A stretch of 54,675 nucleotides of DNA from Candidatus Kaiserbacteria bacterium. GTDB taxonomy: Bacteria > Patescibacteriota > Minisyncoccia > Phycocordibacterales > UBA2100. Position 1 is the first letter of the stretch; each line of letters starts with the position of its first letter. The DNA is taken from assembly GCA_023267655.1 (NCBI GenBank), contig JAHFMV010000005.1, positions 13,200-67,874 of the forward strand, read 5' to 3'. The position numbers and the translations under genes are program-made. A model generated the notes under the pieces. The model saw only the letters and a list, made by a program, of their open reading frames with translations. It was not told the origin of the DNA and did not search any database. Positions 44,030 to 48,740 of this stretch are shown here, in pieces.

Positions 44030-44584
44030 TCACTTCTTTGCAGCCCTATAGAGAATCATGCCTCCGAGAACATAAAGAATCGCATTAAGTGCAACTCCGA
44101 ACATGCCGATATATGAAATTCCGGTATCGCCTATGAGCGCTAGGACCCCCGAAAGCATGGCGCCAATGCCGTACCAAAGCGCAATGTCTCCAAACTGCGG
44201 TCGCATGCGTTGCACCGCCAAGCCGGTGAGCATAAAGGCGATAGCAAAGAGCGTTCCCATGAAAAAATTAAATGTGTCCCATGCAGGCGACGCGGCATAT
44301 TGCGGCAGGAGCGTAAATATTGCGTTTGAGGCATCGGAAAGTATGGAGAGCACGAGCGCAAGAAGCGCCATCATATGAAGCATAGCATTGTGGTATTTCG
44401 TGCCCACAATCGAAAGTCCATACCAATAGACAACATTCGCAAGTGCGCTCGCGGCGATGAGAAAAACACCGAGCCAGTAAGCATCGTTGTAGACATCGAG
44501 CCCCAAACACCATTCGTAGAGATATTCGACCGAAAGAGCGGCGCCGATGAAAGCGGCAACAGATGCGATAAACAACTTATTCAT
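44030..44584 (-). CDS. Polytopic membrane protein of unknown function
   Basis: 184 residues with about six transmembrane helices: KLFIASVAAFIGAALSVEYLYEW, YWLGVFLIAASALANVVYWYGLSIVG, LHMMALLALVLSILSDASNAIFTLLPQY, TFNFFMGTLFAIAFMLTGLAVQRM, LWYGIGAMLSGVLALIGDTGISYIG, ALNAILYVLGGMILYRA. No family recognised. TATACT (44592-44597) lies 7 nt before the ATG. It is divergent from pilB. Confidence 0.7.
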   Translation of the reverse strand: MNKLFIASVAAFIGAALSVEYLYEWCLGLDVYNDAYWLGVFLIAASALANVVYWYGLSIVGTKYHNAMLHMMALLALVLSILSDASNAIFTLLPQYAASPAWDTFNFFMGTLFAIAFMLTGLAVQRMRPQFGDIALWYGIGAMLSGVLALIGDTGISYIGMFGVALNAILYVLGGMILYRAAKK

Positions 44585-44630
44585 TACAGTAAGTATAGCC
44601 GCTCGTTTCCTGCGCTACAATGATATCCAC

Positions 44631-46325
44631 ATGGTCACACAATTCGACGAGAAAAAGCAAGGCGAGCGGCTGGACGAGCTGCGTCGCAAAGAAGAAGAGC
44701 AGCTCGCGACCATGCTCGCCGGCAAGTACGGCATTGGCTACGTCGATCTCACCTCAAAATCCATCGACACGGACGCCTTGCGCCTCATCCCCGAAAAAGA
44801 AGCGCGCGAAACAGAAACCGCTGCGTTTAAGAAAGTAAACAAAAAACTCCTCGTCGCCATGCGAGCGCCCGAGCGCGACAATGCGCTGCAAACAATCAAA
44901 AACCTCGAAGGTCTCGGCTACACCGTCGAAAAATACATGTGCTCGCGCGCGTCGCTCGATCACGCATGGGATCGCTATCACGATATTTCGTACGCGACGG
45001 AAACCGAAGCGGGCATTCTCACGCTTTCAAACGAAACGATTCAACGCATGCTGCAGGAATTGAAGACGCTCGATGATGTCCGCAGTCGCATCAAAGAACA
45101 CATCGCGAGCAAGGATACCCATCGCGTCTCGCACGCGCTCGAGATCACTATGGCCGGCGCGCTTTCGCTTGGCGCATCCGACGTGCACCTCGAGCCGGAA
45201 GAAGAAATTGTGCGTATGCGGTATCGACTCGACGGCGTCCTCGTCGAAGTCCTTCTGTTCGACTTCCCCACGTACGCGCTCATATCGAGTCGCCTCAAAC
45301 TGCTCTCCGGTCTCAAATTAAATGTGAAAAACGCCGCGCAAGACGGCCGCTTCTCGATCGTGGTCAACCAAAAAGAAATTGAAATTCGCTCCTCGGTTCT
45401 CCCTGGCGCGTATGCCGAAACGATCGTCATGCGTATTTTGGATCCGACGACAATCGCGCTCCCGTTTGAAAAATTGGGCTTCGACAAATACCTGATGGAG
45501 ATTTTCAATCGCGAAATCGCAAAGCCCAATGGCATGATTCTCAATACTGGCCCAACAGGTAGCGGTAAAACGACGACGCTCTACGCATTCCTAAGCAAAG
45601 TCACGACGCCGGAAATAAAAATCGTCACGATTGAAGACCCAATAGAATATCACTTGCCCGGCATCGTGCAGACACAAGTTTCAAAAGATTACACATTCGC
45701 CGCGGGACTCCGCTCGACGCTCCGCCAAGACCCCGACGTGATCATGGTTGGTGAAATCCGCGATGCCGAAGTCGCCTCAACGGCGGTGAATGCCTCCCTC
45801 ACCGGCCACCTCGTCTTCTCAACACTCCACACCAACGACGCTGCGGGTACTTTCCCCCGCCTCATCGACATGGGCGTGAATGCCGATATTCTCGGCGCCG
45901 CTCTCACCGTCGCGATGGCACAACGCCTCGTACGTCGCCTCTGTGAAAATTGCCGCGTTGCGACGCCCTTGAGTGCGGAGGATAAGAAGACACTTGCGCC
46001 GCTCCTCTCGAATATCCCGCACAAAGACGAACTCCCTGCGAACCAGGAAACCATGTGGCTTCCGAAAGGCTGCGAAAAATGCGGCGGCCTCGGGTACAAG
46101 GGTCGTATCGCGTGCGTCGAGGTCGTCCTCATGGATCGCGAAATCGAAGCGACTGTGCGCAAGACATCATCAGAGCGCGACATTTGGGCCGCCGCGAAGC
46201 ACCAACAAATCCGTCGCATGGCGCAAGATGGCGCGGTCAAAGTCTTGCAAGGCGTAACCTCAATCGAAGAATTGTCTCGTGTTGTTGACTTACACGACGA
46301 AGTCATGCTGGAGACTATCGCTTGA
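44631..46325 (+). CDS. pilB: Type IV pilus assembly ATPase PilB (GspE family)
   Basis: 564 residues: an N-terminal MshEN-like part (YGIGYVDLTSKSIDTDALRLIPEKEAR), SDVHLEPEEEIVRMRYRLDG, Walker A LNTGPTGSGKTTTLYAFL, IVTIEDPIEYHLPGIVQTQV (Asp box), Walker B DPDVIMVGEIRDAEVA, His box HLVFSTLHTNDAAG, and a four-Cys zinc site (CENC...CEKCGGLGYKGRIACVEV). It powers pilin polymerisation. TACAAT is 9 nt before the ATG. pilM-N-O is 20 kb away. Confidence 0.94.
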   Translation: MVTQFDEKKQGERLDELRRKEEEQLATMLAGKYGIGYVDLTSKSIDTDALRLIPEKEARETETAAFKKVNKKLLVAMRAPERDNALQTIKNLEGLGYTVEKYMCSRASLDHAWDRYHDISYATETEAGILTLSNETIQRMLQELKTLDDVRSRIKEHIASKDTHRVSHALEITMAGALSLGASDVHLEPEEEIVRMRYRLDGVLVEVLLFDFPTYALISSRLKLLSGLKLNVKNAAQDGRFSIVVNQKEIEIRSSVLPGAYAETIVMRILDPTTIALPFEKLGFDKYLMEIFNREIAKPNGMILNTGPTGSGKTTTLYAFLSKVTTPEIKIVTIEDPIEYHLPGIVQTQVSKDYTFAAGLRSTLRQDPDVIMVGEIRDAEVASTAVNASLTGHLVFSTLHTNDAAGTFPRLIDMGVNADILGAALTVAMAQRLVRRLCENCRVATPLSAEDKKTLAPLLSNIPHKDELPANQETMWLPKGCEKCGGLGYKGRIACVEVVLMDREIEATVRKTSSERDIWAAAKHQQIRRMAQDGAVKVLQGVTSIEELSRVVDLHDEVMLETIA

Positions 46326-46433: not shown

Positions 46434-46470
46434 AAAATAGCATTGCACTTACGAGGCGCAATGCTATTTT
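46434..46470 (-). terminator. Rho-independent terminator of the minus-strand RNA gene
   Basis: AAAATAGCATTGC pairs with GCAATGCTATTTT around an 11-nt loop; perfect 13-bp stem with A/T tracts on both sides, so it can serve pilB as well. Confidence 0.85.
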
Positions 46471-46718
46471 GGAAAAAGAAATGTGATTGTGGAGACATCC
46501 TAATCCCATACGAGACTTCGTCTCGTCGGACGGACACGTCGGAGTAGCACATCCCCAAACGATGCTTTCAATGGATCATCGAAAGTCGGATAGAACCTAA
46601 GGAAAGGGGCAGTCAAACTGCCGAAGCGGCCGGCCGCCGCCATCCTCGGAGAAATCCTGGTATCGTTTGGAGATGTGCGTCCCTGACAAACAAAAAACGA
46701 CGTTGGGACGCCGTTCTG
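46434..46718 (-). ncRNA. Unidentified structured RNA gene, about 280 nt
   Basis: The minus strand carries a promoter (46725-46753), then a ~280-nt stretch without credible coding content, then a perfect terminator. A 17-bp stem GCACATCTCCAAACGAT (46661-46677) pairs with ATCGTTTGGGGATGTGC (46547-46563) using a G-U pair. It encloses hairpins around GGCAG-TTTGA-CTGCC (GGCAGT/ACTGCC), GCGGCCGGCCGC and CTTTC...GAAAG; CGAGAC-GAA-GTCTCG follows outside. Not RNase P, tmRNA or SRP by the motifs I know; 6S-like is possible. A 5' end of ~46718 is inferred. Confidence 0.6.
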
Positions 46719-46724
46719 CCGTGC

Positions 46725-46753
46725 AATGTAGCATGCCAGAGCGCCGTTGTCAA
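46725..46753 (-). promoter_or_regulatory. Consensus promoter of the minus-strand RNA gene
   Basis: TTGACA (46748-46753), 17-nt spacer, TACATT (46725-46730), reading toward lower coordinates and overlapping the region just before the ruvB ATG. Confidence 0.65.
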
Positions 46754-46756
46754 TAT

Positions 46757-47770
46757 ATGGCAAATGATAAGGAAATAAGCCCTAAATCGATCAGGTCGCT
46801 CGACCAAGCGCTCCGTCCTGCGCTGTGGAATGAATATGTGGGACAGGCAGCGATCAAAGAAAACCTCCGTATCCTTTTGTCCGCTGCAAAGGGGCGCAAA
46901 CAGCAGCCGGAGCACGTGCTTTTGTATGGACCGCCCGGATTGGGCAAGACAACGCTCGCGCATTTGATCACCAAAGAGATCGGGGCGAACTTGCGCTCGA
47001 CTTCCGGCCCCGCCATCGAGCGCGTGGGCGATCTCGCATCGATTTTGACGAACCTTTCTCCCGGCGATGTTCTTTTTATCGACGAAATCCACCGCCTCAA
47101 TCGCACCATTGAAGAAGTCCTCTACCCCGCGATGGAATCAGGCGTCTTGGATATTGTGATCGGCAAGGGCCCGAGCGCACGCACGGTGCAGCTTGAATTG
47201 CCGGCGTTCACGCTCATCGCGGCGACGACGCGCATTTCCATGCTCTCCTCTCCCCTTCGCTCGCGCTTCTCCGGCGGGACGTTCCGGCTCACGTACTACA
47301 CCGAGAATGAAATCGCGGAAGTATTGCGACGTTCATCGAAAATTTTGGAAATCCCGACGGACGACGAATCCATTAAGGAAATAGCGCGGCGAAGCCGCGC
47401 AACGCCGCGCACCGCCAATTACCTTCTCAAGCGCGCCCGAGACTTTGCGCAGGTGAGCGAGGAGAAATTAGATATGAAAACAGTGAAAAAAGCACTCGCG
47501 CTCCTTGAGGTCGACGAACTCGGCCTCAACCAGATCGACCGCGACATTCTTTCGATCCTTGTCGATAAATTCAAAGGCGGCCCCGTCGGCCTCAAAACAA
47601 TCTCCGCTGCGCTCTCAGAAGAGGAGGCCACTATCGAAGAAGTGCACGAACCGTACCTCCTCCAGCTTGGCCTCCTAGAGCGCACTCCCCGCGGCAGAAC
47701 GGTCACCGAAAAAGGCTACCAACATCTGGGCGAAGACATGCCGAAATCGGAGCAACCTAAACTGATTTGA
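46757..47770 (+). CDS. ruvB: Holliday junction DNA helicase RuvB
   Basis: 337 residues: RPALWNEYVGQAAIKENLRILLSAAK, Walker A LLYGPPGLGKTTLAHLI, Walker B DVLFIDEIHRLNRTIEEVLYPAME, sensor 1 IAATTRISMLSSPLRSRF, RSRATPRTANYLLKRARDFA (arginine sensor), and the winged helix GPVGLKTISAALSEEEATIEEVHEPYLLQLGLLERTPRGR. Complete, normal length. The ATG at 46757 (MANDKE) is chosen by homology; the frame extends into the RNA gene. It works with RuvA and RuvC. Confidence 0.95.
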   Translation: MANDKEISPKSIRSLDQALRPALWNEYVGQAAIKENLRILLSAAKGRKQQPEHVLLYGPPGLGKTTLAHLITKEIGANLRSTSGPAIERVGDLASILTNLSPGDVLFIDEIHRLNRTIEEVLYPAMESGVLDIVIGKGPSARTVQLELPAFTLIAATTRISMLSSPLRSRFSGGTFRLTYYTENEIAEVLRRSSKILEIPTDDESIKEIARRSRATPRTANYLLKRARDFAQVSEEKLDMKTVKKALALLEVDELGLNQIDRDILSILVDKFKGGPVGLKTISAALSEEEATIEEVHEPYLLQLGLLERTPRGRTVTEKGYQHLGEDMPKSEQPKLI

Positions 47771-48209: not shown

Positions 48210-48740
48210 ATGGCCGGACACAATAAATGGGCGCAGATAAAACGCCAGAAGGGGGCGAATGATGCGGCGAAGAGCCGCGTGTGGGCTAAATTGTCGCGAC
48301 GCCTCACTGTCGAGAGTAAGAAAGCAAATGGCGACGCGAATGCGGCGAATGTGCGCTCGGTCGTCGAGACCGCGCGCAAGGAGAACATGCCGAAGGACGC
48401 CATTGAACGCGCTATTCACAAAGGTACAACCGCAGATGCCGCTTCAATGGAGAGTGTTGTGTACGAATGCTACGGCCCCGGCGGCGCGGCGGTCATCATC
48501 TCGTGCCTCACGGACAACAAAAACCGCACACTGCAGGAATTGAAGGGCATTTTTGCAAAACATGCGATTGCGCTTGCAACTCCTGGATCCGCGCTCTGGG
48601 CGTTTGATAAAACTGCCGAAGGGTACGCGCCAAAAACCACTATTCCCCTCTCGGCAGACGACCACGATGCCCTTATGAAAGTCCTGGAACTCATCGACGC
48701 CCTCGATGATGTGGAGGAAGTCTATACGAATGCGGAGTAG
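48210..48740 (+). CDS. yebC: YebC/PmpR-family protein, short form
   Basis: 176 residues: AGHNKWAQIKRQKGANDAAKSRVWAKLSRRLTVESKKANGDANAANVRSVVETARKENMPKDAIERAIHKGT is the conserved YebC N-terminus, followed by VVYECYGPGGAAVIISCLTDNKNRTLQELKGIFAKHAIALATPGSALWAFDK. The usual 240-250 residues are cut: the C-terminal domain is missing ~60. YebC proteins help translation through difficult sequences or act as regulators. It stands before ruvC, the usual yebC-ruvC order. Confidence 0.92.
   Translation: MAGHNKWAQIKRQKGANDAAKSRVWAKLSRRLTVESKKANGDANAANVRSVVETARKENMPKDAIERAIHKGTTADAASMESVVYECYGPGGAAVIISCLTDNKNRTLQELKGIFAKHAIALATPGSALWAFDKTAEGYAPKTTIPLSADDHDALMKVLELIDALDDVEEVYTNAE

Follow-up and report, generated by a model that had tools for sequence, protein, structure and literature searches.

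What kind of gene lies on the minus strand between pilB and ruvB in a Candidatus Kaiserbacteria genome, and does its product belong to a known class of bacterial RNA? The window, meaning the whole stretch of 54,675 nucleotides analysed, carries at 46434–46753 (minus strand) a sigma-70 promoter followed by a folded RNA and a terminator hairpin. An earlier note had described this as an RNA gene and offered two possibilities for it, a divergent 6S RNA or a new RNA class. Comparison of genome sequences shows a conserved, promoter-driven, single-copy structured RNA gene, and the balance of evidence favours the second option: the product is probably a free-standing, non-coding structured RNA of a new family, found in one class of the Patescibacteria, which would work in trans as the RNA of a ribonucleoprotein.

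The locus between pilB and ruvB

The features of the locus, in window coordinates, are as follows.

44547–46325, plus strand: pilB, type IV pilus assembly ATPase, convergent with the RNA and its constant partner
46434–46470, no strand assigned: bidirectional terminator hairpin, common to the RNA (minus) and pilB (plus)
46538–46687, minus strand: conserved RNA core (150 nt in the window, ~150–170 nt in the family), supported by covariation and scored by the models described below (R1, 168 bits; R2, 87 bits)
46694–46724, minus strand: 5′ leader, containing a terminator-like hairpin (46717–46694) immediately 3′ of the promoter
46725–46753, minus strand: sigma-70 promoter, with TTGACA (46753–46748), a 17-nt spacer, TACATT (46730–46725) and an extended -10 TG
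46757–47770, plus strand: ruvB, divergent from the RNA, matching TIGR00635 above cut-off

The RNA thus sits between a convergent pilB and a divergent ruvB, with tsaE beyond pilB, and yebC and ruvC beyond ruvB. The best match of PilB is TIGR02538 (445 bits, under that model's curated cut-off). Among the named loci, the RuvB closest to that of the window shares 72% identity with it. The YebC-like protein (48210–48740, plus strand) has 176 aa and covers no more than the first ~137 positions of a profile of ~240; its ending still resembles the usual C-terminus, making it a shortened YebC.

The promoter was found where it had been proposed, matches 10 of 12 consensus positions, and recurs across 143 relatives far beyond chance; a scan of 1.3 kb returned two promoter-like sites, against 0.8 ± 0.9 in shuffles. 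The terminator had been called perfect, which is slightly generous: the hairpin is indeed perfect, at ~14 bp, but its U-run lies inside the stem (the bidirectional type), has only four U, and the hairpin is missing from the list returned by a terminator scan. Promoter, fold and terminator hairpin of the proposed ~280-nt unit all stand, but its conserved part is only the ~150 nt of the core. Relatives differ in the 5′ leader and in the ~100 nt at the 3′ end, to which the hairpin right after the core belongs. A leader hairpin with a U-run between promoter and core also occurs in four further loci of the window's genus (L015, L022, L031 and L034); several same-genus relatives have one, it was not seen in the wider family, and it could attenuate the RNA or be the source of a ~35-nt RNA.

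Known RNA families and hidden proteins

When the 4227 families of Rfam 15 were searched at Rfam thresholds, only tRNAs were found within the window, and nothing for the element. Neither the element nor any of 33 further loci, almost all of them carriers of the RNA, matched a family. Gathering scores were reached in none of 20 divergent loci, and at weak thresholds the element with 11 of these 20, and 13 loci around ruvB, mostly from other orders, gave chance-level matches only. Searches of the open text of PMC, the body of literature covered, turned up no description of such an RNA.

The view that the element is not RNase P RNA, tmRNA or SRP RNA was borne out. The first two are housekeeping RNA genes of the same genome, but have their own loci, with separate matches to RF00010 (121.5 bits, at G000:C3) and RF00023 (130.4 bits, at G000:C22). 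SRP RNA is likewise a rod-shaped housekeeping RNA of similar size, but a replacement for it was ruled out by the absence, among relatives within the order, of both SRP RNA models (RF00169 and RF01854, in 0 of 41 and 0 of 31 genomes) and of Ffh (TIGR00959, for which only sub-threshold partial matches were seen in 4 of 31 genomes, with 14 of 14 controls matched). This agrees with a report of Parcubacteria without ffh and 4.5S RNA (PMC4508563).

A hidden protein was also rejected. The 87-aa open reading frame on the minus strand has no Pfam match and its frame is broken in the nearest relative (L002), so that no conserved minus-strand protein was found; core lengths are scattered over all three frames, with no conserved reading frame. 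A riboswitch or mRNA leader was discarded since no gene follows downstream on the same strand, and pilB lies antisense in 136 of 146 loci.

The main specific rival is a functional 6S RNA, extremely divergent or independently evolved, that binds sigma-70 RNA polymerase. The element and 6S RNA (RF00013) share a stand-alone sigma-70-type gene with a strong promoter of its own, a single copy, a length of ~150–200 nt, and ends paired in a closing stem; moreover, no 6S RNA was found in these genomes, in which the other housekeeping RNAs (RNase P RNA, tmRNA, SRP RNA) either have a place of their own or went undetected. Against this, RF00013 matched 0 of 80 relatives, a result that is not proof of 6S absence because the control matched only 5 of 14 known reference genomes, and loci of several orders gave no 6S match even when searched at weak thresholds. 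The predicted fold, considered below, also bears on this rival, which on the whole we regard as unlikely.

Distribution, strand and covariation

Comparison of the ruvB–pilB region in related genomes, as the earlier note had advised, revealed that the RNA recurs there. When 146 relatives were searched at the DNA level, five true loci emerged, the window's own among them, and all five lie in the pilB–ruvB gap; a DNA match in genome G046 (L006) is a chance match and not this RNA. The 150-nt core of the five loci, in which 16 pairs have changed on both sides, formed model R1. Of 294 relatives searched with it, 108 have a match, and over half of these 108 belong to other families of the window's order. 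Each genome is matched at one place, except where the same place is read on the opposite strand, and these apparent second copies come from the palindromic rod.

Model R2, a new alignment of 21 divergent members, was fixed before an even sample of the phylum was searched. It matched 17 of 17 genomes of the window's order, 1 of 15 in the class's other orders, and 0 of 347 from other classes of the phylum. The sequence of the inner rod was further used as a pattern against 84,980 species genomes, which yielded 89 stretches where about one is expected by chance, by our own estimate. All named matches are Patescibacteria (Taylor-, Zambryski-, Kaiser- and Vogelbacteria, Parcubacteria and Paceibacterota), and the 80 loci fetched all score 68–144 bits with R2. 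A phage or E. coli origin was rejected, as the order-specific pattern has no match in viral contigs and blastn found nothing in phages or E. coli. In two genomes of the window's own genus (G005 and G007) there is neither an R1 match nor a real RuvB match, despite 93–95% completeness; either the locus was lost jointly, or the bins have a gap.

In other orders, RuvB was taken as the anchor for locating the gaps, most of which contain a same-strand TTGACA promoter and then a rod of ~15–28 bp; the junction closed by this rod carries the same motif in P3. Alignment A9, on which model R3 was built, unites nine sequences drawn from several orders and was prepared partly with trimming chosen by hand. 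Members outside its training set were found both in genome searches (G335, 3e-11; G555, 2e-12; G464, 1e-6) and in gap searches (G353, 8e-11; G563, 4e-8). All searches combined, at least 12 of the 15 genomes sampled from the class's other orders carry the RNA; G494 has none in its pilB–ruvB gap, G627 has no model match and G611 is borderline. R2 and R3 were built stepwise from sequences that earlier models had found, a circularity guarded against by the held-out matches, the 0 of 347 in other classes and the shuffle controls. As the genomes are mostly metagenome bins of uncultured organisms, statements of absence are limited accordingly.

No model matches were obtained in other classes of the phylum. 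In one genome of another class (G299), ruvB is preceded by a strong promoter and a folded rod (L179, 1155–1323, minus strand); this element is possibly a distant relative, and membership is not claimed since it has no significant model match.

The neighbourhood is also conserved. PilB is encoded convergently in 136 of 146 loci, the exceptions being mostly contig ends, and the distance from core to pilB stop ranges from -20 to 1321 nt, with a median of 114. G464 and G555 yielded no RuvB match and keep the RNA at the end of pilB, indicating that pilB is the constant neighbour. A TsaE-like gene, read from translations, lies beside pilB as in the window at L221 and L222, where tsaE–pilB–RNA looks like an old cluster surviving without ruvB.

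Such synteny is strong enough to leave room for an element working in cis on the pilB mRNA, to terminate, protect or tune it, as a convergent antisense RNA or a shared 3′ structure; a variant of the same reading has it act on ruvB by promoter interference. The RNA of G555 reaches the stop codon of pilB, and in the window RNA and pilB share one bidirectional terminator. The range of distances nevertheless leaves no conserved overlap, so the RNA is probably not an antisense regulator of pilB; in the window a separate terminator hairpin stands between RNA and pilB, a terminator would have no need of the conserved junction and P3 motif, and the RNA persists in the two genomes lacking a RuvB match. 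A role in cis is accordingly rather improbable, and somewhat more so than the 6S reading.

The strand is settled by promoter position, fold energy and the excess of G-U over A-C. Upstream of the core, 107 of 143 loci have a promoter matching at least 10 of 12 positions on the RNA strand and none has one on the other strand, compared with 2.4% of shuffles; TTGACA with an extended -10 precedes the core in 121 of 143, and promoters mostly lie 7–100 nt upstream of it. In 135 of 146 cores the sense strand gives the stabler fold, and G-U pairs outnumber A-C by 79 to 19, about four to one. These observations leave very little probability to an element of the plus strand, such as a ruvB 5′ leader or pilB 3′ UTR, as does the retention of the RNA where the RuvB match is missing. 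What can be said for it is that the rod-like inverted repeats fold on that strand too, where the window element reaches z = -5.3, and that weak model matches occur on the wrong strand. The minus-strand fold is stronger, at -120.4 kcal/mol (z = -7.7 against shuffled sequence), and contains the 17-bp long-range stem that had been noticed at the outset, pairing 46678–46662 with 46563–46547.

Covariation supports the fold both within and between orders. Order-wide, compensatory changes affect 34 of 43 consensus pairs in 21 sequences, and across orders 19 of 26 pairs in the nine sequences of A9; 0 of 500 shuffles reach either value. In A9, 92.6% of cells are paired, which no shuffle reached, and the covariation signal is destroyed when pairing partners are slid.

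Predicted fold and possible role

The consensus structure was drawn from 97 sequences, nearly all of the window's order, and its predicted shape is a rod (P1) opening into a three- or four-way junction. The corresponding elements in the window are listed below, from 5′ to 3′ along the RNA.

46662–46687, minus strand: 5′ strand of the P1 rod, with the inner 17-bp part at 46662–46678
46588–46657, minus strand: P3 arm, with CCGAGGA (46649–46643) paired with UCCUUAGG (46603–46596), and apical hairpins
46565–46585, minus strand: P4 hairpin, CUUUCGAU...AUUGAAAG
46538–46563, minus strand: 3′ strand of the P1 rod, with the inner part at 46547–46563

P1, which pairs both RNA ends, has 25 bp in the consensus and ~15–28 bp across members. 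Its inner half is conserved in sequence (UCUCUAAGCAA / UUGCUUAGAGA), and alignment A9 suggests approximately CUGYRGGYAA / UURCCYRCAG for the inner rod across orders. In a number of divergent members a U-run adjoins the rod end, so P1 may double as the terminator there; the window's genus has an additional hairpin 3′ of the rod. P2 is an optional small hairpin of 4 bp and P4 a helix of 8 bp. P3 is a series of short helices. One of them is AGGA / UCCU, which has a C / UA internal loop; another is UGG / CUG, where tandem U.G and G.U wobbles occur in ~80% of sequences beside an invariant G-C. In one weaker member (L172, G072) the apical P3 arm deviates from the order consensus; the rod and promoter are retained.

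How far this resembles 6S RNA can now be considered. If it were a 6S RNA, P1 would correspond to the closing stem and P3 to the terminal stem, with the central bubble supplied by the junction and its hairpins P2 and P4. The order of parts (rod, hairpin on the junction's 3′ strand, long arm) does recall the 6S layout. 6S RNA has a central bubble (PMC8876501), a large open one between its closing and terminal stems. The new RNA, unlike 6S RNA, is predicted to have no such large open bubble: in the 97-sequence consensus, and in single folds from several orders, the junction strands are short and P2 and P4 form helices, P4 being a covarying helix. It also differs in having a rod whose sequence is conserved and, in P3, a conserved motif with tandem wobbles. 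The missing bubble, as modelled, speaks against membership of the 6S family and not against a 6S-like role.

Action in trans within a ribonucleoprotein remains the best reading, as the conserved paired inner end of P1 and the tandem-wobble motif of P3 look like protein sites and would be the putative points of binding. It is further suggested by the lack of a long, unpaired conserved stretch, which also argues against a base-pairing small RNA; by the lack of a sense-strand gene 3′ of the RNA, which argues against a leader; and by a core that is usually clear of pilB. Of possible roles, regulation of transcription or translation is in our view the likeliest. The raiA-motif RNA, or ModT (RF03072), is similarly a free-standing structured RNA, widely conserved, and its function was studied only after a long uncharacterised period (PMC11706538); it differs in occurring in Bacillota and Actinomycetota, and no Rfam match links the two.

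Few structured RNAs are conserved class-wide in bacteria, and most of these belong to long-known housekeeping families. Here, a single-copy RNA with a strong promoter has been retained in genomes of ~1 Mb that have shed much, including SRP, and such persistence of the RNA across a class of reduced genomes suggests a basic role. The chances appear evenly balanced that it forms a class-wide, probably essential ribonucleoprotein, unrelated by descent to known bacterial RNAs and serving a basic process of Patescibacteria, in a lineage that appears to have lost SRP and to have no recognisable 6S RNA. The current Rfam collection lacks one whole class-level family of this lineage, and an elementary part of the cell may so far have gone unnoticed in a major bacterial lineage. 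The RNA gives Patescibacteria research a defined target, to be pursued in metatranscriptomes, through its protein partner, and in relation to RNA polymerase and ribosomes.
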